A stretch of DNA of 42,207 bases from positions 1 to 42,207 of the IMG/VR virus record IMGVR_UViG_3300030430_003170. One strand, 5' to 3'. Numbering within the stretch: position 1 is the stretch's first letter; the number at the start of each line of letters is the position of its first letter. Positions 4,067 through 40,512 of this stretch are shown in pieces. The notes below the pieces were generated by a model. It searched no databases, was not told the origin of the DNA, and saw only the letters and a program-made list of their open reading frames with translations. Origin of the DNA: a virus. Made by a program: the position numbers and the translations under genes.

Positions 4067-4747
4067 ATGGCTAAAGTCATATTTAAGTGTTTTTTAAAAG
4101 AAGTCAAAGACAAATTTCCAATACAAAAAATATCAAGTAAAGACTTCAAATGGTTTGATAGAATGAATAAATTTTATCAAGATAATCCAAGGAAAGTTCA
4201 AACTAATAAATGTCCAGGTATTTTGAGCACTTTGCAAACAGGCTGGATTCAAAAAACTTATCAACCAATTACAATAACAACTAATGGTGACAAAAAAACT
4301 TTTAGTTGGCACACACCTTACAATCAAAAAAAAGGTGAGAACGGATTTTTAATAGACAATTATGTTTCAAGTCATGAATATGATCAGTTAGCAAAATTTA
4401 AAAATTTAGGTGATAGTGTCTTAGATACAGTAATCAAAATACAATCACCATGGAGAGTAATCATACCTAAAGATTATTATTTGTTATCCACTGCAATACC
4501 TTATAACGATGATGTAAATTTTACCGCAGCCACAGGATTATTAATGGGTGAAAACTTTTTAAATGTGCAGCTTTTTTGGCATAAATTAAAGGGTGATTAT
4601 ACTATACCATCAGGAACTCCTTTATGTTATTATCTCTTAATCAAAAAAGAAAAGTTTGATAGTGAAATAAGTATGTTGAATAATGAAGAAATTGATATTA
4701 TAAAACAGGATCAAATAAATTTTTTTAACAAAAAATTAAAATCATAA
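4067..4747 (+). CDS. DUF6065-like protein of unknown function
   Basis: A 226-residue soluble protein. The section at about residues 126-195 (IQSPWRVIIPKDYYLL, then a conserved TAATGLLMG and a segment on IPSGTPLCYYLLIKK) resembles the family I remember as DUF6065, which is scattered in phages and bacteria and has no known activity; the name is from memory. Aromatic residues and a central SWHTPYN motif suggest a beta-rich fold. It starts a new group after a 19-base gap and is followed without a gap by the peptidase gene. Confidence 0.6.
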   Translation: MAKVIFKCFLKEVKDKFPIQKISSKDFKWFDRMNKFYQDNPRKVQTNKCPGILSTLQTGWIQKTYQPITITTNGDKKTFSWHTPYNQKKGENGFLIDNYVSSHEYDQLAKFKNLGDSVLDTVIKIQSPWRVIIPKDYYLLSTAIPYNDDVNFTAATGLLMGENFLNVQLFWHKLKGDYTIPSGTPLCYYLLIKKEKFDSEISMLNNEEIDIIKQDQINFFNKKLKS

Positions 4748-5223
4748 TGCAATTAACAAGAAATTTTTCTCTATCAGAATTAACTAAAAGCGACACGGCT
4801 ATTAGAAAAGGTATTGATAATAATCCTAACGCCGAACAAGTTGATAAATTAAAATTACTTTGTGAAAATATATTACAACCTGTAAGAGATCATTTTGGTA
4901 GAGTTAAAGTAACCTCAGGCTATCGTTCCCCTGAGCTGTGTGTAGCAATCGGCAGCTCCGTTAATTCTCAACATGCAAAAGCGGAGGCTTGTGACTTTGA
5001 AGTTATAGGTGTATCAAATGCAGAACTGAGTGATTGGATTTTTAATAATTTACAACCAGATCAATTGATTTTAGAATTTTGGAATCCAGGAGAAAAAAAT
5101 AGTGGTTGGGTTCACTGTAGTTATGTTGAAGACTCTCCAAGAAAACAATATTTAAGAGCTTATAGAAAAGACGGAAAAGTAAAATACGAACCAATTTTAG
5201 GAAACGCTACATCTATTTTTTAA
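4747..5223 (+). CDS. M15-family zinc D-Ala-D-Ala peptidase, probable endolysin
   Basis: A 158-residue protein matching the compact peptidase M15A fold that cuts peptidoglycan peptide stems. It has NFSLSELTKSDTA at the start, VTSGYRSPELC at residues 55-65, the zinc motif SQHAKAEACDFE (His76, Asp83), a Glu at 110 in the position of the catalytic acid, and WVHCSY with the third ligand His123. No signal peptide is present, so release to the periplasm would need a holin. The length fits phage endolysins of this family. Start overlaps the upstream stop by one base. Confidence 0.85.
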   Translation: MQLTRNFSLSELTKSDTAIRKGIDNNPNAEQVDKLKLLCENILQPVRDHFGRVKVTSGYRSPELCVAIGSSVNSQHAKAEACDFEVIGVSNAELSDWIFNNLQPDQLILEFWNPGEKNSGWVHCSYVEDSPRKQYLRAYRKDGKVKYEPILGNATSIF

Positions 5224-5696
5224 TGTACCTAAAAGATAAAGTTTTTGATCCCTTATTAATAGTTTATTTAAATGATTTTATTTTAAAAAGTAAAATGAAT
5301 TTACAATGCAGTGATGAAGGTGATGGTAGTCAATTTTTACAGACAAATTTTAGTTTAGAAGATCCTCTAATTCAATATTTAGCTATTAAAATTTTTAATT
5401 CATTCGATGAAAAAATAAAAAATAAAAGTGTAAGAAGAGCTTATGCAAATATACAATTTGCAGGAATGGACGGGTGTTTTCATAAAGATGATGGAGATTA
5501 TACTGGATTGTTGATGGTTTCGAAAACTTTAGATAAAGGTGATGGATGTTTTGTTACTGAAAAAGAAAGTGTTGATTTTGTCAGTAATAGAGTTATAGTA
5601 TTTAATGCAAAGGAGAAACATAAAGGTAATGCACCAAAAGATAATTCTAAAGGGCCTAGGATTACATTAGCTTTTAAAACTACAAATGGCGATTAG
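5223..5696 (+). CDS. 2OG-Fe(II) oxygenase, prolyl-4-hydroxylase-like (1 of 6)
   Basis: A 157-residue double-stranded beta-helix dioxygenase. Iron ligands are His87 and Asp89 (FHKDD) and His133 (KEKHKGNAP); Arg146 (GPRITLAF) is the 2-oxoglutarate anchor. The family couples oxidation of 2-oxoglutarate to hydroxylation of a protein, sugar, lipid or nucleobase; the substrate here is unknown. It is nearly minimal in length and overlaps both neighbours, lying between the endolysin candidate and small basic proteins. Confidence 0.85.
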   Translation: MYLKDKVFDPLLIVYLNDFILKSKMNLQCSDEGDGSQFLQTNFSLEDPLIQYLAIKIFNSFDEKIKNKSVRRAYANIQFAGMDGCFHKDDGDYTGLLMVSKTLDKGDGCFVTEKESVDFVSNRVIVFNAKEKHKGNAPKDNSKGPRITLAFKTTNGD

Positions 5697-10449: not shown

Positions 10450-11682
10450 ATGACATCAGCATACTCAACAGATTTAAAACTAGAATTAATGGTCACTGGC
10501 GAAAACGCTGGTACATGGGGTGATAAAACTAACACCAATTTAAATTTAGTACAACAAGCCATAGCTGGTTTTGAACAGGTAACACTATCAAGTGGTGGAA
10601 CTTTAGCACTTGCAATGACAAATGCTACTTTGTCAAACGCGAGAAACATGGTAATCAAATTTGCTACTGCTTCAATAGCATCTAGCACAGTTTGCACAAT
10701 ACCAGATGGAATAGAAAAATTTTATATTTTTGATTGCACAGGATTAACTAACCCTTCTAATTTAACAATTAAAACGGCTTCTGGAACTGGTTTCTCTCCA
10801 GACAGAGCAGCTATTTTTGCTGCATATGCAGACGGAACAAATTTAAAAGAAGTATCACTAGATACATTAGGTGGAACAGTAGCTGCTGCTCAAATAGCAG
10901 ATGATGCTGTAACCACTGCAAAAATTTCAAACGCAAACGTAACTACTGCAAAAATTGCTGACAATGCAATTACCACTGCTAAAATTTCAGCTTTACAAGT
11001 AACAGGTGCTAAAATGGCAGCTACAACTGTTACAATTTCTAAAATGGCAGCTAACTCTGTTGGACCTAATCAATTAGTAGCTACTGGCGTTACTGCTGCA
11101 TCTTACACAACTGCTAACATAACTGTTGACGCTGACGGTAGAATTACCGCTGCATCTTCAGGATCTGGTGGTGGAACAACTCAATTAACTTTCCAACAAA
11201 TGGATGCAGGAACTTACAGTTTTCAATCTCAACCTAACGCTACTAAAATTGGAGTTTATATAGCTGGCGGTGGTGGCGGATCAGGCTCACAGAGATCAGG
11301 TGGAGATGGTGGTTTTGGTATAAAATTTGTAGATATTACTGGACCTTACTCACAAAATTTAACTATTGGTGCTGGCGGTACTATGGTGCCTGCTCCAAAC
11401 CCAGGTCCTGGTCAAGCTGGACAAGCATCAACTTTTGGTGACCCATCAGTTTTAATAACTGCAAACGCTGGTAGTGGTGGACCACAAGCTTACTCACCAG
11501 GTTATGGCTCTCCAGGTAATTGTCCTGACAGTGACGTAGTTATGTTCAGAACAAACCCAGAAGCAATTTATGATTTTACTTTAAATCCTAAAACCGATTT
11601 CCCTAAAAAATTACCTGCAACAGCTACAGCTGCAGATGTTGACGGCAGAGACGGTTTCTGCATGATATACGAGACGTTTTAA
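10450..11682 (+). CDS. Tail fibre protein with 10-residue repeats and glycine-rich tip
   Basis: A 410-residue fibre-type protein. Residues 1-45 (SAYSTDLKLELMVTGENAG and GTWGDKTNTNLNLVQQAI) are a typical fibre N-terminus of marine phages. Residues about 147-206 carry six copies of a 10-residue repeat built on VTTAKI-like units, expected to form a triple-stranded shaft. The section 245-345 is Gly-rich (IAGGGGGSGSQRSGGDGGFG), as in glycine-rich adhesin tips, and the end is a compact domain. The tip probably binds the host surface. It is followed closely by a possible accessory gene. Confidence 0.75.
   Translation: MTSAYSTDLKLELMVTGENAGTWGDKTNTNLNLVQQAIAGFEQVTLSSGGTLALAMTNATLSNARNMVIKFATASIASSTVCTIPDGIEKFYIFDCTGLTNPSNLTIKTASGTGFSPDRAAIFAAYADGTNLKEVSLDTLGGTVAAAQIADDAVTTAKISNANVTTAKIADNAITTAKISALQVTGAKMAATTVTISKMAANSVGPNQLVATGVTAASYTTANITVDADGRITAASSGSGGGTTQLTFQQMDAGTYSFQSQPNATKIGVYIAGGGGGSGSQRSGGDGGFGIKFVDITGPYSQNLTIGAGGTMVPAPNPGPGQAGQASTFGDPSVLITANAGSGGPQAYSPGYGSPGNCPDSDVVMFRTNPEAIYDFTLNPKTDFPKKLPATATAADVDGRDGFCMIYETF
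10888..11067 (+). repeat. 30-bp coding tandem repeats in the tail fibre shaft
   Basis: Six imperfect 30-bp units encode the 10-residue repeat (for example AKISNANVTT, AKIADNAITT, AKISALQVTG). DNA similarity between units is only moderate, so the repeat is maintained mainly at the protein level. Confidence 0.55.
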
Positions 11683-12182: not shown

Positions 12183-12211
12183 TTTACAAAAATAATACAA
12201 TCGTATATAAC
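12183..12211 (+). promoter_or_regulatory. Sigma70-type promoter for the 2OG oxygenase cluster, probably leaderless
   Basis: TTTACA (12183-12188) and TATAAC (12206-12211) are separated by exactly 17 bases, each one mismatch from consensus. The -10 box ends 6 bases before ATG 12218 and no Shine-Dalgarno sequence is present, so transcription would begin at or next to the start codon. Confidence 0.6.
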
Positions 12212-12217
12212 AAACGT

Positions 12218-12796
12218 ATGTTATTCGACAAATACGTTTACATCCAAGATAATAAAATTGACCCTGAAATAATTGCAAAGTTAATTAAATTTTTAAACTT
12301 TGCTTACGAAAAAAAATGGTATCGAGAAGGTCAGATTTTTACAAATCAATCTGCTGCAAGCTTAATAAAAGAAATAAGAAACGTAGAAACTATGGGTCTT
12401 ACAAACTTACATGAATCATTAACTTTAAGTCATTGGGCTAATCTTGTAACTTATTACTTGAGTATATCAATAAATAATTATTGTCGTGTACACAAAGATG
12501 TGCCTGAAGCATCTATCAATGATATTCAAGCACTAAGATATGAAAAAGGTGGTCATTATAAATTACATATTGATGACGGCGGTAATACCTACAGAAGAAT
12601 AAGTCAAATATTATATTTAAATAATGATTATGAAGGTGGTAATTTAATTTTTGAATCCACAGATGGTAAGGATAAAAAAGTGGTTGAACCCAAAGCTGGA
12701 AGAATAATAACTTGGCCAAGTAATTTTTTATTTAGACATGGCATAGAGCCAATAACTAAAGGAGTAAGACATTCAATAGTATCATGGGCAGTTTAG
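12218..12796 (+). CDS. 2OG-Fe(II) oxygenase, PKHD-type (2 of 6)
   Basis: A 192-residue dioxygenase with a clear PKHD-like C-terminal half. Iron ligands are His117 and Asp119 in YKLHIDDGG and His174 in FRHGIEPI; Arg184 in GVRHSIVSW anchors 2-oxoglutarate. YLNNDYEGGNLIF (133-145) is the strand between them. The N-terminal 100 residues are helical. It opens a four-oxygenase cluster under its own promoter, so it may be expressed apart from the tail genes on either side. Substrate unknown. Confidence 0.9.
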   Translation: MLFDKYVYIQDNKIDPEIIAKLIKFLNFAYEKKWYREGQIFTNQSAASLIKEIRNVETMGLTNLHESLTLSHWANLVTYYLSISINNYCRVHKDVPEASINDIQALRYEKGGHYKLHIDDGGNTYRRISQILYLNNDYEGGNLIFESTDGKDKKVVEPKAGRIITWPSNFLFRHGIEPITKGVRHSIVSWAV

Positions 12797-13341
12797 ATAA
12801 ATACAAAGTAATTAAAAATTTTTTAACTAAAGAAGAACAAGAGTTGTTAAGATTTTATACAGTTATTAAACATAGAATTAATCAAAACGAATTTGATTTT
12901 CAGCAATGCAAAGGTTTACCCATGTTTTACGGAGATCCTATCATGGAAGCATTGATGGTACATAAGGCAGAAATTATGGAAAAAGAAACAGGTTTAAAAG
13001 TTTTACCAACTTATTCTTGTTGGAGGATGTATATTTTAGGAGCTGATTTAAAAAAACATAAGGACAGACCATCTTGTGAAATAAGTGTAACCGTTCAAAT
13101 AGCTTCATCGAGTAAGTGGCCATTATACATAGATGGTAATGAAATAACTTTAGAAGATGGAGATGCAGTAATTTACAGAGGTTGTGATGTTGAACATTGG
13201 AGAAACGAATATAAAAGTGATTATCATGCTCAAGTGTTTTTACATTATGTAGACAAAAATGGTCCTCATCGAAACAATTACAAAGATGGTCGACCTTTAT
13301 TTGGGTTACCAGCCTCAAAAAGGAATCAATTACCAGGATGA
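12784..13341 (+). CDS. 2OG-Fe(II) oxygenase-like protein, 2OG anchor not evident (3 of 6)
   Basis: A 185-residue protein overlapping the previous gene by 13 bases. Candidate iron ligands are His92 and Asp94 (LKKHKDRPS) and His138 (VEHWRNEY), with the typical strand EDGDAVIYRGCDVEH. Where the family usually has Arg or Lys about ten residues after the distal His, this protein has His148 (KSDYHAQVFLHYV), so 2-oxoglutarate may be held differently or the activity altered. The C-terminal 30 residues (GPHRNNYKDGRPLF) are an extension seen in phage members as far as I recall. Confidence 0.75.
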   Translation: MGSLDKYKVIKNFLTKEEQELLRFYTVIKHRINQNEFDFQQCKGLPMFYGDPIMEALMVHKAEIMEKETGLKVLPTYSCWRMYILGADLKKHKDRPSCEISVTVQIASSSKWPLYIDGNEITLEDGDAVIYRGCDVEHWRNEYKSDYHAQVFLHYVDKNGPHRNNYKDGRPLFGLPASKRNQLPG

Positions 13342-13559
13342 AGTTTAGACAAAGCAAAGAAGATGGATCTTGTGATTTAATTTTTTCAGACGAAGAAATT
13401 GAATCTTTAAATAAAAATAAAAAATTACATTTTACTCCAGAAACTTTAAAAACTTTTGGTAATGTTTTAGTTCACATGGTTGGTACTTTTAATTCAAATT
13501 TTAAAGAAGAACTACAAAACAAAATGACTAAACCCGATGAGAAAGTTAATCTTAAGTAA
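13338..13559 (+). CDS. Small protein within the oxygenase cluster
   Basis: A 73-residue soluble protein with a beta-like start (MKFRQSKEDGSCDLIFSDEE) and helical remainder ending in a charged tail. Start and stop both overlap oxygenase genes (4 and 23 bases), so it is translated as part of the cluster. It could be a partner or regulator of the enzymes; nothing more can be concluded. Confidence 0.6.
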   Translation: MKFRQSKEDGSCDLIFSDEEIESLNKNKKLHFTPETLKTFGNVLVHMVGTFNSNFKEELQNKMTKPDEKVNLK

Positions 13560-14055
13560 ATATATACAAAAACCAATAGAACAAGAAGTTTTATTTTATT
13601 CAGGAAAAATAGAAACTGATGCTAAATATTTCATAGATAAGATTGAGCAGGGTATAAAACATAAAGAAAACAAAAATTATGTAACTAACGTAAAAGGTCA
13701 AATGACCGATTGGAAATATTTTTTAGATGACAAATATTTTATTGAATTGGTTACTGACATATTTAAATCAGCGAATGTTATGCACAAAAACCTACCATCT
13801 TGTAGATTAACAGATGCTTGGGGTATTAAGTTACAACCACATGACCATACAAATATTCATGATCACAGGCCTAACTTATACTCTGGTGCTATTTATTTAA
13901 CACCTAGTAATCAACACTTAGAGTTTCCTGAAATCAATATTACATTAAAACCTGAAGTAGGTGAGTTTGCTTTGTTTAGTTCTTTTTTAAAACACTTTGC
14001 AACTAAAGGCTCTGATAAAGCTATTAAATATGGACTATCTTTTAACTTAGGATGA
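13537..14055 (+). CDS. 2OG-Fe(II) oxygenase, group-5-like with HxH site (4 of 6)
   Basis: A 172-residue protein. The segment HDHTNIHDHRPNLYSGAIYL (102-121) corresponds to the region of Fe2OG_Oxy_5-type enzymes in which HxHP is followed by a SGxxYL strand; ligand candidates are His108 and His110. The distal ligand is His153 (FLKHFATKG), with Lys161 or Lys164 in place of the usual Arg. The C-terminal SFNLG strand is typical. Use of HxH in place of HxD is known in this group. Substrate unknown. It overlaps the next gene by 4 bases (ATGA). Confidence 0.75.
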   Translation: MRKLILSKYIQKPIEQEVLFYSGKIETDAKYFIDKIEQGIKHKENKNYVTNVKGQMTDWKYFLDDKYFIELVTDIFKSANVMHKNLPSCRLTDAWGIKLQPHDHTNIHDHRPNLYSGAIYLTPSNQHLEFPEINITLKPEVGEFALFSSFLKHFATKGSDKAIKYGLSFNLG

Positions 14056-14636
14056 AAAATTCAAATGTCGATACCTTGATGAGATCTTGGTATATTGATA
14101 CAAAAATCTGCGATCAAATATTACTATGGGCTGATAACAATGATCATCTCTATCATGATGTAAAACTTGAAAGACCAAATAAAAAGATTGAGTATGATAA
14201 ACGGGAGATTAATATTTCAAGTAATGATTTCTCCAAGCCATGGTATTTTTATAGGAAAGCTTTAAATAGTTGTGCAGCAGAATATATAAAACAGTTGCCA
14301 CATGTAAATTTTGTTTTTCACACAGACATTGTAGAACCTTATAATTTACAACATTACAAACCTGGACAAGGTTTCTATAATTGGCACTGCGAAAACAATG
14401 GAACACCTAATCATCTAAGAAAAAGAAATTTAGTATTTATGACTTATCTAAATGATGTTGAAAAAGGTGGCACAGAGTTTTACCATCAAAACCTAACAGT
14501 GCCAGCCAAGAAAGGCTTAACTTTAATTTGGCCTGCATACTGGACTCATACTCATAGGGGTCAAATAACAAAAATAGACCATAAATACATAGTAACTGGT
14601 TGGTATAGCTTTTTAGATAAAGAGCCAAGTCTATAA
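14052..14636 (+). CDS. 2OG-Fe(II) oxygenase with HxE site (5 of 6)
   Basis: A 194-residue dioxygenase. His112 and Glu114 (YNWHCENNG) occupy the HxD position as an HxE variant, followed by the strand LVFMTYLNDVEKGGTEFY. The distal His is 168 (THTHRGQ) and Lys178 (DHKYIVTGWYSF) takes the 2-oxoglutarate anchor position, exactly 10 residues later. HxE sites occur in some active members of this superfamily. It closes the cluster and is followed by a new promoter box before the gp10-like gene. Confidence 0.85.
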   Translation: MKNSNVDTLMRSWYIDTKICDQILLWADNNDHLYHDVKLERPNKKIEYDKREINISSNDFSKPWYFYRKALNSCAAEYIKQLPHVNFVFHTDIVEPYNLQHYKPGQGFYNWHCENNGTPNHLRKRNLVFMTYLNDVEKGGTEFYHQNLTVPAKKGLTLIWPAYWTHTHRGQITKIDHKYIVTGWYSFLDKEPSL

Positions 14637-14666: not shown

Positions 14667-16841
14667 ATGCCTTTATCAAAAGTACGTATAGTCCCAGGTT
14701 TTGACAAACAAGCTACTCCAGCAGAAGCTGAAGGTAGATGGGTTGATGGTGACAATGTTAGATTCAGATATGGTGAACCAGAAAAAATTGGTGGTTGGAG
14801 TGCACTTACAGAAAATACTATAGTTGGTGCAGCTAGAGCTCAACACGTTTGGTCCAATACAGATGGTAAAAAATTTGCTGCGATTGGCACTGATAAAGTT
14901 TTAATTATTTATTATGCTGGTGCTTTCTATGATGTAACACCTTTAGAAACTGACAACTTCTCTACAGGAGCAAGTATAACAACGACCAACGGATCAGCTA
15001 CTGTTACTATAACTACTTCAGCATCACACAATTTAGAAGTTGGAGAGTTAACTACTTTTGCTAATGCAGCTTCTTTTACATCTGCTAATACAGACTACAC
15101 TGCTGCAGATTTTGATGATCAAGTTTTTGAAGTTCAATCTGTTCCTACTATAACAACTTTCACAATTACAATGCCATCAGCAGAATCTAAATCTGGTGTA
15201 ACAACTGATGGATCATTAGATGTTAGACCTTACGAACCAGTTGGACCACTCAATCAAACTTTTGGTTATGGTTGGGGGACTTACTTATGGGGTGGTAGGA
15301 CGGTTGCTCAAGTAACAACAACTATGAACAATGGTGGAGCTTTACTAGTTGGTGGCTCTTCTGTAACTCTTACTAGTGCCACTAACTTTCCAACCTCTGG
15401 AACTATTAGAATTGGTTCTGAGGACATTACTTACTCAGGTAAAAACAGCAATGAGTTAACTGGTTTAGGTCGTGGAGCTAACGGCACAACACCAGCAGAG
15501 CATTCCGATGGATCAACCGTTACTAATATTTCTGATTACGTTGGCTGGGGTGATGCTTCAACATCCAGTAATGTAACCATAGATCCTGCCAATTGGTCAT
15601 TAGATAATTATGGTAATTTACTTATAGCTACAGTTCACAACGGTCGAACTTTTACTTGGGATGCGTCAGCAACAAATGCTTTAACTACTAGAGCTACTAT
15701 AGGAACAGGCATGCCTACTAGGTCTGTAATGACAATGGTCTCTGATAGGGATAGACACTTATTTCATTTAGGAACTGAAACAACCATAGGAACTCCATCC
15801 ACACAAGATAAAATGTTCATAAGATTTTCTGATCAAGAAAGTTTAACCGATTATGCACCTACATCAACTAACACTGCAGGGACTTTTAGATTAGATGATG
15901 GAACACAAATTATTGGTGCCATCAAAGGTAAAGATTATATTATAGTTTTAACTGACACTGCATCATATATAGTTCAGTTTGTTGGACCACCTTTTACTTT
16001 TTCTATTCTTAAAGTAGGTTCGAATAATGGTATGATTGGACAACATGCGGGAATCTTTGCAAACGGTGCTGTTTATTGGATGGGTAAAACAGGCGGTTTT
16101 TATGTCTATGACGGAACTGTAAAATCATTACCTTGTTTAGTAGAAGATTTCGTATTTACAACAAACGGTAACAACCCTGGAATAAATTATACTTCTGGTC
16201 AATTAGTATATGCAGGTATAAATGAATTATATTCTGAAATAAATTGGTTTTATGCTACTGCAAATTCACAAGTTGTAAACAGATGTGTAACCTATAACTT
16301 TGCTGAAAATGTTTGGACAACTAGCACATTGGATAGAACTACATGGGTTGGATCTACCGTGTATGAACAACCTTATGCAACAGATTATGAATCTTCAATA
16401 ACGCCAACTTTTCCAACTGTAAATGGTGTTTCAGCTGGTGCTTCAATTTATTATCAACATGAAATAGGTGTGAATCAAGTAAATACTGATCAGTCATCAA
16501 CTGCAATACCAGCGTTTATAAAATCTGGTGAATTTGATTTAAATGGTAATTCAGGAGTACCTGGTGATGGTGAATTCTTGATGAGTATTAGTAGATTTTT
16601 ACCAGACTTTAAACGTATTAGTGGTAACGCAAAAGTTACTATTTTCTTGAACTCTTTTGCTCAAGGATCTGTAGCTGCATCAAGTCCATTAGGACCATTT
16701 ACTATAAGTTCTAGCACCACTAAAGTAAACACAAGAGCAAGAGCAAGATTTGCTGCTGTGCAAATCGAAAACGAAAGTTTAGACGAGAGTTGGCGATATG
16801 GCACTTTCAGATTTGATGTAAGAGTGGATGGTAGAAGATAA
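14667..16841 (+). CDS. P22 gp10-like tail hub / DNA stabilisation protein
   Basis: A 724-residue protein. The start (FDKQATPAEAEGRWVDGDN, then VRFRYGEPEKIGGW) is the signature of gp10-like packaged-DNA stabilisation proteins, which close the portal-adaptor channel and connect the tail. The middle is beta-rich, with blocks such as LLIATVHNGRTFTWD, DRHLFHLG, IIGAIKGKDYIIVLTD and GAVYWMGKTGGFYVYDG consistent with a propeller-like fold. An insert at about residues 95-300 carries Thr/Ser-rich strands and a GYGWGTYLWGG motif resembling the WG motifs of the protein at 8974. The C-terminus contains FRFDVRVDGRR. Confidence 0.8.
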   Translation: MPLSKVRIVPGFDKQATPAEAEGRWVDGDNVRFRYGEPEKIGGWSALTENTIVGAARAQHVWSNTDGKKFAAIGTDKVLIIYYAGAFYDVTPLETDNFSTGASITTTNGSATVTITTSASHNLEVGELTTFANAASFTSANTDYTAADFDDQVFEVQSVPTITTFTITMPSAESKSGVTTDGSLDVRPYEPVGPLNQTFGYGWGTYLWGGRTVAQVTTTMNNGGALLVGGSSVTLTSATNFPTSGTIRIGSEDITYSGKNSNELTGLGRGANGTTPAEHSDGSTVTNISDYVGWGDASTSSNVTIDPANWSLDNYGNLLIATVHNGRTFTWDASATNALTTRATIGTGMPTRSVMTMVSDRDRHLFHLGTETTIGTPSTQDKMFIRFSDQESLTDYAPTSTNTAGTFRLDDGTQIIGAIKGKDYIIVLTDTASYIVQFVGPPFTFSILKVGSNNGMIGQHAGIFANGAVYWMGKTGGFYVYDGTVKSLPCLVEDFVFTTNGNNPGINYTSGQLVYAGINELYSEINWFYATANSQVVNRCVTYNFAENVWTTSTLDRTTWVGSTVYEQPYATDYESSITPTFPTVNGVSAGASIYYQHEIGVNQVNTDQSSTAIPAFIKSGEFDLNGNSGVPGDGEFLMSISRFLPDFKRISGNAKVTIFLNSFAQGSVAASSPLGPFTISSSTTKVNTRARARFAAVQIENESLDESWRYGTFRFDVRVDGRR

Positions 16842-17508: not shown

Positions 17509-17685
17509 ATGACCGTTTATCACAAAGTTAAGTGCACCACTAAAACAATCTATAGAAGTAAGAAGTCAGGTAAAAAATACGATACAAAAGAAGAATTTTT
17601 AAAAGAAAATCCAATTGAAGATATTGCATCAGATGTAGTTGTTCAGGTGCCTGATTTACCTATATTTAGTAAAACTAAAAAATGA
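17509..17685 (+). CDS. Small protein preceding the glycosyltransferases
   Basis: A 58-residue protein. I chose ATG 17509 because it directly follows the TATAAT box; a TTG at 17494 is inside the promoter. It contains VKCTTKTIYRSKKSGKKYDT and a Pro-rich, acidic end. The pattern SGKKYDTKEEFLKEN is like short zinc-free domains in phage proteins, but no family is certain. Its stop overlaps the glycosyltransferase start by 4 bases. Confidence 0.55.
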   Translation: MTVYHKVKCTTKTIYRSKKSGKKYDTKEEFLKENPIEDIASDVVVQVPDLPIFSKTKK

Positions 17686-18614
17686 AACCTCTTGGTGGCA
17701 CAGAGTTACAACATGCATTTTTAGAAAAATATGTATCTAAAGATGTGTTAGATAAATTTCAGATATGCACATCCATACCTGGTAAAGTTCCTATTGATCC
17801 AAAAAAAATTAATATACTATGGCAAAAAAATTCTTGGAATCAACCAAATATAGAACCTTGGTTTACTAAAAAAAGTAATCATGATCTGTATGATTATTAT
17901 GTATTTAACAGTCATTGGAACTATGAAAAATTTAGAATGTGTTTTGATATACCAACACACAAATGCACTGTAATAAAAAATGGTATACCTAAAATAAAAT
18001 TAAGAGATGTAAATAAAAAATCTGACAAAACTAGATTAATATTTACTCCTACACCATGGCGTGGATTAAATGTTTTACTTGCAGCTATGCAACTAATAAA
18101 AAGTAAAAATATTGTTTGTGATGTATATTCAAGCACGTCTATATATGGAGATAAATTTAAAGAAGCAAACGATAAACAATTTCAAGGTCTATATGAACAG
18201 TGTCGGCAATTACCAAATGTAAACTACATAGGTTATAAACCTCATGATTATATTTTGGAACATTTACATGAATATGATGCTTTTGTTTATCCTAACGTTT
18301 GGGAAGAAACATTTTGTATATCTGCTTTAGAAGCTTTAGCAACAGGTTTATACACTGTTACAACAGATTACGGAGCATTATTTGAAACTTGTGCTGAGTT
18401 TCCTGTGTATGTTCCTTTTGATACAGACTATGATAGATTAGCTGAACAGTTTGCTTTTGCTATAGACTTGATACCACAACACTTACAACAACAAGGTTGT
18501 AGAGATCATCTTAAATTTCAACAAAAATATTTTAATTACTTTTACAGTTGGGACAGGGTAGCACCTAATTGGATTAATTTTTTAAACGGAGCTCTTAATG
18601 CAAGATCCAAGTAA
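17682..18614 (+). CDS. Glycosyltransferase, GT4-like (GT-B fold)
   Basis: A 310-residue protein with the C-terminal half of GT-B retaining glycosyltransferases: LIFTPTPWRGLNVLLAAM (119-136, donor-domain start), VNYIGYKPHDYILEHLHEYDAFVYP (180-204) and the E-x7-E motif WEETFCISALE (Glu209 and Glu217) that holds the nucleotide-sugar, then ALATGLYTVTTDYGAL. The N-terminal acceptor domain is short (GGTELQHAFLEKY, residues 5-17). It would transfer a sugar to an unknown acceptor, such as a virion protein, host surface glycan or a phage-made molecule. It overlaps the next glycosyltransferase by 17 bases. Confidence 0.85.
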   Translation: MKPLGGTELQHAFLEKYVSKDVLDKFQICTSIPGKVPIDPKKINILWQKNSWNQPNIEPWFTKKSNHDLYDYYVFNSHWNYEKFRMCFDIPTHKCTVIKNGIPKIKLRDVNKKSDKTRLIFTPTPWRGLNVLLAAMQLIKSKNIVCDVYSSTSIYGDKFKEANDKQFQGLYEQCRQLPNVNYIGYKPHDYILEHLHEYDAFVYPNVWEETFCISALEALATGLYTVTTDYGALFETCAEFPVYVPFDTDYDRLAEQFAFAIDLIPQHLQQQGCRDHLKFQQKYFNYFYSWDRVAPNWINFLNGALNARSK

Positions 18615-39507: not shown

Positions 39508-39904
39508 TTTAGCTACTGAGATAATCAAAACACCTAGCAGATCAGAGCATAGGTTGTATCAAGCTGTAATTATACAAGCTTTTGAAGATTGCTTGTACAC
39601 GCTAGGCGGTAAAAATGAGGCGTACAATAAAAAAGAAGCACATGAATGGTTTATGAATAATAGTGACGACTTTCAAAATGTTTGTTATCTTGCTAACTTA
39701 GAACCAAGTATGGTACGAAATAGATATATAGAGTGTTTAAAAAAACAAGTTATTGTATTTACAGAAGTGCAATGTTATTGGATTGAATATAAGAATGAAT
39801 ATAAAAATTATAGAGCTGCTGAAACAAAGGAACAAAGAAAATCTATAAAAGAAAAGATAGATCAAATTAGATATAAATTAAAATTAAAGGATAAAAAGAA
39901 ATGA
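39497..39904 (+). CDS. Conserved-type phage protein of unknown function
   Basis: A 135-residue helical protein from ATG 39497; a GTG at 39467 would add 10 residues. The pattern EHRLYQAVIIQAFEDCLYTL, AHEWFMNNSDDFQNVCYLAN and LEPSMVRNRYIECLKK recalls a phage family with WF, VC and LxPxxVR motifs that looks helix-turn-helix-like, but I do not know its function. The C-terminus is Lys-rich. It overlaps the following oxygenase by 4 bases. Confidence 0.6.
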   Translation: MGIDLATEIIKTPSRSEHRLYQAVIIQAFEDCLYTLGGKNEAYNKKEAHEWFMNNSDDFQNVCYLANLEPSMVRNRYIECLKKQVIVFTEVQCYWIEYKNEYKNYRAAETKEQRKSIKEKIDQIRYKLKLKDKKK

Positions 39905-40512
39905 AACCTATACTAGACGGCATATTATGTACACCAGTTTACATTAATACTATTGAAAGAAATTATACAAAAGAAGAAGTACAATTTTTTGCAGATCAAA
40001 GTAATAAATGTGTGGGTAATCAAGGTAATAGATATACAGAAAATACATATATTCTTAATCGTCCTGAAATGTCTAATATTAAAAAGTTTGTTGAGAAAAG
40101 TATTGATGATTATGTAGATAAAATAGTTAAACCCATCGATGATATTAAAGTGTACCTTACACAATCATGGATAAACTACACAGAAAAAAATGGTTTTCAT
40201 CACAAACACTCTCATCCGAACTCTTATTTATCAGGCACATTGTATTTAAGTGCAGACGAGGCAACAGACACAGTTACTTTTAGACAAGAGAGACAAGAGG
40301 CCATAGCTGTGAAAAGTAGATTAACTAAATTAAATTCACCTGGTTGGTCGTACAAGGTTAAGTCTGGCATTATTATGATCTTTCCCTCTACTACTTTACA
40401 TGAAGTACAAAAAGCTAAAGGTGATCATACAAGAATAAGTTTATCTTTTAATACATTTTTAAAAGGTAGTTTAGGCAACTTACAGAATAGTTTAGTTAAG
40501 TTAGACATATGA
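39901..40512 (+). CDS. 2OG-Fe(II) oxygenase, group-5-like with HxH site (6 of 6)
   Basis: A 203-residue dioxygenase distant from the others. The core has LTQSWINYTEKNGFHHKHSH (residues 86-105) with His103 and His105 as the HxH pair, then PNSYLSGTLYLSADEA. The distal His167 (STTLHEVQKA) and Arg178 (HTRISLSFNTF) complete the site. The pattern is that of Fe2OG_Oxy_5-type enzymes, and is closest in style to the protein at 13537. It overlaps the small protein at 40509 by 4 bases. Substrate unknown. Confidence 0.85.
   Translation: MKPILDGILCTPVYINTIERNYTKEEVQFFADQSNKCVGNQGNRYTENTYILNRPEMSNIKKFVEKSIDDYVDKIVKPIDDIKVYLTQSWINYTEKNGFHHKHSHPNSYLSGTLYLSADEATDTVTFRQERQEAIAVKSRLTKLNSPGWSYKVKSGIIMIFPSTTLHEVQKAKGDHTRISLSFNTFLKGSLGNLQNSLVKLDI

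Follow-up and report, generated by a model that had tools for sequence, protein, structure and literature searches.

Clustering of 2OG genes with a gene called 'ferrochelatase' has been described in HTVC023P-type pelagiphages (Wittmers 2022, PMC9599517). Elsewhere, 'ferrochelatase' figures among auxiliary metabolic genes with seasonal enrichment (PMC11561400), and it is entered as 'Hyp. with ferrochetalase domain' in a study in which 2OG genes were proposed to act in nitrogen signalling (PMC3037559); in a further report, EGLN3-like phage proteins and PHROG 61 are noted, with ferrochelatase unmentioned (PMC12774648). The window analyzed here, i.e. the whole 42,207-base stretch of an IMG/VR virus record, gives a weak nucleotide match to pelagiphage HTVC023P; the phage is marine, is related to SAR11 phages and is an HTVC023P-like podovirus. 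The locus resembles the published gene group in that it occurs in the same group of phages, holds several non-orthologous 2OG genes close together and has a 'ferrochelatase' adjoining one of them.

Six oxygenase-type genes and their setting

The original prediction had placed four overlapping oxygenase genes and one small extra gene in a cluster (g1 to g5, Table 1) and had counted six oxygenases in the phage with the addition of two distant genes (g6 and g7). The coordinates of the cluster are correct and the overlaps are present, and family profiles pick exactly six such genes across the window, all of which fall into families of the 2OG-Fe(II) type whose metal-ligand residues are conserved. 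In the Pfam search, g1, g4, g5 and g7 scored above the cut-off, and g2 and g6 had no significant match. When the non-redundant family sets were compared, the metal ligands were invariant for g1 (R184, 98%) and 99-100% conserved for g7, the His residues of the site were invariant for g4, and H112 and H168 were invariant for g5, the acidic ligand E114 not being among the conserved positions listed for that family. With Pfam scores above the cut-off and conserved metal ligands, g1, g4, g5 and g7 are predicted members of the 2OG-Fe(II) oxygenase superfamily. The assignment of all six families to the 2OG-Fe(II) type is well supported, with catalysis putative.

Four of the six oxygenase genes fall within five consecutive genes (chance P = 0.005, with 66 genes assumed), and the conservation of the cluster in more than 200 loci is stronger evidence of a non-random arrangement than this P value. 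The placement between tail genes was also borne out, a tail fibre gene lying before the cassette and a virion structural protein gene after it. Away from the cluster, the window contains a carbamoyltransferase gene cut by the contig end (41061-42206) and a group 1 glycosyltransferase gene (17682-18614).

Table 1 Features of the window discussed in the text, in order of position.
Feature	Coordinates	Strand	Assignment	Evidence
phrog_7084 gene	4067..4747	+	phrog_7084 protein, remote DUF6065 relative	phrog_7084 3e-32; hhalign to DUF6065 93%
g6	5223..5696	+	2OG-Fe(II) oxygenase family (phrog_274), H87xD89...H133...R146	phrog_274 2.5e-18
tail fibre gene	10450..11682	+	tail fibre, candidate substrate	phrog_863, phrog_28766, other tail-fibre families
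TTTACA-N17-TATAAC	12183..12211	+	promoter-like string	exact string present
g1	12218..12796	+	2OG-Fe(II) oxygenase (Oxy_3, phrog_61), H117xD119...H174...R184	PF13640 2e-18
g2	12784..13341	+	2OG-Fe(II)-oxygenase-fold protein (phrog_2954), H92xD94...H138	phrog_2954 8e-50; AF2 model
g3	13338..13559	+	small protein, 73 aa, companion of g2 in close relatives	profile search
g4	13537..14055	+	2OG-Fe(II) oxygenase (Oxy_5, phrog_81), H108xH110...H153	PF13759 5e-7
g5	14052..14636	+	2OG-Fe(II) oxygenase (Oxy_3, phrog_61), H112xE114...H168...K178	PF13640 5e-10
virion structural gene	14667..16841	+	virion structural protein, downstream border of cassette	phrog_3287 2e-77; same place in 156 loci
g7	39901..40512	+	2OG-Fe(II) oxygenase (Oxy_5, phrog_81), H103xH105...H167	PF13759 3e-22

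The TTTACA-N17-TATAAC string that had been proposed as the cluster's own promoter is present exactly where predicted, but a promoter function did not hold up. Strings of this kind occur in the window at chance level (38 observed vs. 30.9 +/- 4.8 expected). Only 6 nt separate the -10 box from the ATG of g1, so that a transcript would start approximately at the start codon, with no leader and no ribosome site. An overlap of g1 with the gene ahead of it, seen in 67 of 71 close relatives, leaves no gap for a promoter there. On these three grounds, the string was rejected as the cluster promoter and probably is none. In close relatives, the phrog_7084 gene lies directly before g1, and in the window it is displaced to position 4067; the gap before g1 was probably left after the loss of this gene there. 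The oxygenases would be expressed together with the late structural genes.

The PHROG family of g6 (PHROG 274) is named 'DNA endonuclease V'. There is no match to PF03013 (T4-type endonuclease V) in the window, and in Mosig and S-T4 the true EndoV family (PF03013) is found at genes other than those annotated as 'EndoV', which belong to the g6 family. Within the non-redundant set of that family, H87, D89, H133 and R146 are invariant; hhalign connects g6 with g1, g4, g5 and g7 (probability 96-98), and a weak match to the NCBIfam FlmC 2OG family (1.5e-5) falls under the cut-off. Given the lack of PF03013, the 2OG-type site and the profile relation to the other four genes, g6 was rejected as DNA endonuclease V; judged by motifs and profiles, PHROG 274 is a misnamed 2OG-Fe(II) oxygenase family. 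Further members were located in loci L084 (10624-11136) and L089 (6256-6819).

The small gene g3 is present together with g2 in almost every close relative (80 were found by the g2 search), and 79 sequences from the close loci match its profile; among cultured phages, the profile search found no g3 relatives.

Predicted fold and metal site of the PHROG 2954 protein

The PHROGs label of g2 (PHROG 2954) is 'ferrochelatase'. Neither Pfam nor NCBIfam recognises the family, and a sequence search of g2 against PDB gave nothing useful. A structure prediction from the single sequence reached a pLDDT of 35 and was replaced by an AlphaFold2 model based on an alignment of 68 relatives (pLDDT 95.2, pTM 0.90), in which g2, the hardest case among the claimed oxygenases, is predicted to have the 2OG-oxygenase fold and an HxD...H site. 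The best solved Foldseek matches of the model were P. putida prolyl-4-hydroxylase (9e-8), PHD enzymes and other 2OG oxygenases, and the top VIA match was 2rg4 (2.2 A over 148 residues); other structural matches include SnoN, PolD and EctD as well as some AlkB. From the matches to P4H, PHD2 and 2rg4, a double-stranded beta-helix with the prolyl-hydroxylase fold is predicted for g2 with high confidence.

All 248 g2-family ORFs compared share residues H92, D94, H138 and Y83. An Arg or Lys that binds 2OG about 10 residues after the distal His is usual in P4H-type members, but not universal in the superfamily. In the g2 family, this column is occupied by C, H, Y or Q and never by R or K among the common residues; g2 is therefore classed as an oxygenase-fold iron protein for which 2OG is only a putative co-substrate. 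Three other residues, R81, R140 and Q150, are nearly invariant in the family, and one of these may substitute for the missing Arg or Lys. Fusions of g2 to a canonical 2OG oxygenase domain of the g1 family, located C-terminally, occur in 22 proteins, and g1 and g2 are probably a working pair.

The ferrochelatase family PF00762, for which 10 of 14 control genomes were positive, gave no match at E <= 1 in the window or in nine g2-carrying phage records (0 of 10). In the nine phage records, the g2 profile picks the genes annotated as ferrochelatase or, in S-SCSM2R, as a 2OG superfamily protein. Ferrochelatase is absent among the structural matches listed for the g2 model, although an unlisted family could still exist. 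Without the PF00762 signature and with a beta-helix oxygenase fold predicted, g2 cannot be recognised as a ferrochelatase, and this name is not supported for PHROG 2954.

The cassette in related phages and its possible role

In related phages, the oxygenase genes stay linked rather than scattered, as expected from the original prediction. The usual order is a tail fibre gene, genes for proteins of ~150 aa and ~250 aa (phrog_7084), g1, optional oxygenases, g2, variable genes, g3, further variable genes and the structural protein gene; g2 is usually preceded by g1 and, in close relatives, followed by g3. Beside the tail fibre, the cassette is conserved yet hypervariable in many HTVC023P-like podoviruses: other oxygenases and carbamoyl-, sulfo- and sugar-transferases are swapped between cassettes, and the variable genes encode further 2OG families, carbamoyltransferases, a sulfotransferase, a sugar-transferase-like protein and a QueC-like protein. 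The last of these, ~218 aa long, occurs in ten close cassettes (L021 5043-5699; L040 7720-8373). In 172 loci, a tail-fibre family is encoded no more than 7 genes away, usually on the upstream side; 156 loci have a virion structural gene downstream of the cassette. In the three groups that were sampled, 2OG genes average 3.7, 3.3 and 2.8 per cluster, values that are limited by contig ends and by the relatedness of the phages. In several pelagi- and cyanomyoviruses, the cassette is likewise found close to genes for the tail or neck. Similar clusters close to such genes are seen in HTVC023P, HTVC033P, Mosig, HTVC008M, S-MbCM6 and S-T4; in P-SSM7 and ACG-2014f, g2 is not beside tail genes.

Tentatively, and with slightly less than an even chance, we read the locus as a tailoring-enzyme cassette in a tail-gene module, which would modify the tail fibre encoded next to it or a glycan carried by this fibre. 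Adjacency to the tail fibre, together with the transferase partners, favours such modification; the fold and site of g2, the ligands of the six families, the 22 g2-g1 fusions and the kept gene order are further support, as are the transferases in sister cassettes and the carbamoyltransferase and glycosyltransferase in the window. Counted against it are the position of g2 away from tail genes in P-SSM7 and ACG-2014f, the NRPS/PKS-linked cellular relatives and the absence of the usual Arg/Lys from g2. The cassette enzymes would hydroxylate the fibre or its glycan, other enzymes may next carbamoylate, sulfate or glycosylate the hydroxyl groups, and the modified fibre would differ in receptor binding or be shielded. 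The broader proposal that a swappable cassette chemically diversifies receptor-binding fibres, by hydroxylation followed by addition of carbamoyl, sulfate or sugar, with natural-product-type enzymes and the 'ferrochelatase' as a core member, is conceivable, at about one chance in several. No report of phage tail hydroxylation was found in the literature searched (subscription journals and preprints left out).

A genome scan for g2 relatives yielded 41 loci, several of them phage-like. Relatives in cellular settings are surrounded by NRPS/PKS genes in Brasilonema and by NRPS-like genes in Rhizonema; in a Bacteroidetes MAG, a neighbouring gene encodes a phosphopantetheinyl transferase (L271 5956-6624; L269 3985-4704; L276 5782-6426). 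The NRPS/PKS setting suggests small-molecule substrates, and the main rival to fibre or glycan tailoring is that the enzymes act on free amino acids or on a peptide- or sugar-like metabolite, so that infection would yield a modified metabolite and not a modified virion. The structural matches of g2 to SnoN, PolD and EctD are in keeping with this alternative, which we nevertheless consider rather unlikely: the adjacency to tail fibres persists over many phages, and carrier or synthetase genes are absent from the phage cassettes examined. The tail-protein or glycan substrate suggested in the original prediction fits the neighbourhood and the transferases, whereas the cellular relatives point partly to small molecules.

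In Nocardia and in Verrucomicrobia MAGs, DUF6065 lies directly before g2 or overlaps it, and phrog_7084 is, by profile comparison, a remote relative of DUF6065 (hhalign controls, <1%). Besides the window gene, phrog_7084 or DUF6065 genes were located beside g2-family genes of phages and bacteria in L291 (5035-5844), L272 (316-1215) and L288 (1061-1909); an apparent DUF6065-g2 fusion in L287 was discarded because the joined stretch holds unknown bases. The phage gene set is tied, by association only, to tailoring enzymes of specialised metabolism.

It is improbable that the cassette genes serve as auxiliary metabolic genes by reducing the 2-oxoglutarate of the host or changing iron/haem metabolism, as proposed in PMC3037559 and PMC9599517. 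Infection by HTVC027P, a related phage, does raise host iron-uptake genes (PMC12753301), but the haem part conflicts with the missing ferrochelatase signature and different predicted fold of g2, and a set of several divergent enzymes, placed at a tail-gene locus of swappable content, would presumably not be needed to drain 2OG. Modification or repair of nucleic acid, to which some structural matches to AlkB, the PHROG name 'DNA endonuclease' for 274 and 2297 and a repair role cited in PMC3037559 might point, is very improbable, the Pfam matches being Oxy_3 and Oxy_5 and not AlkB-type, the true EndoV family being at other genes and the cassette sitting in a tail module.

Comparison with described systems

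The 'ferrochelatase' of PHROG 2954 is taken as evidence that viruses affect haem and iron metabolism (PMC9599517), a view in which the g2 family is read as a haem enzyme, whereas here it appears as an oxygenase-fold protein in a cassette that lies by a tail fibre and includes transferases. If PHROG 2954 is an oxygenase-fold protein, the readings of PMC9599517 and PMC11561400 need revision, and phage annotation libraries need correction; no published correction of the name was found in the literature searched, with subscription journals and preprints left out. New in the present analysis are the predicted fold and the site of PHROG 2954, the fusion of this family to oxygenases of the g1 type, the correction of PHROG 274, the conserved g3 and the link to DUF6065.

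Among proteins of solved structure, g2 resembles the prolyl hydroxylases (P. putida P4H 4j25, the top Foldseek match, and PHD2; Z ~15) in its HxD...H site and differs from them in sequence (~15% identity) and in having no Arg/Lys at the distal His +10. The g2 model is also similar to 2rg4 and 3bvc, uncharacterised marine alphaproteobacterial proteins (Z 16.3 and 15.2), with an identity of just 12%. In PHROG 3531, the cyanophage 362-aa 'ferrochelatase' (ACG-2014f gp210), the N-terminal half corresponds to g2 and the C-terminal half is g1-like; this is one fused protein, whereas the window has two overlapping genes.
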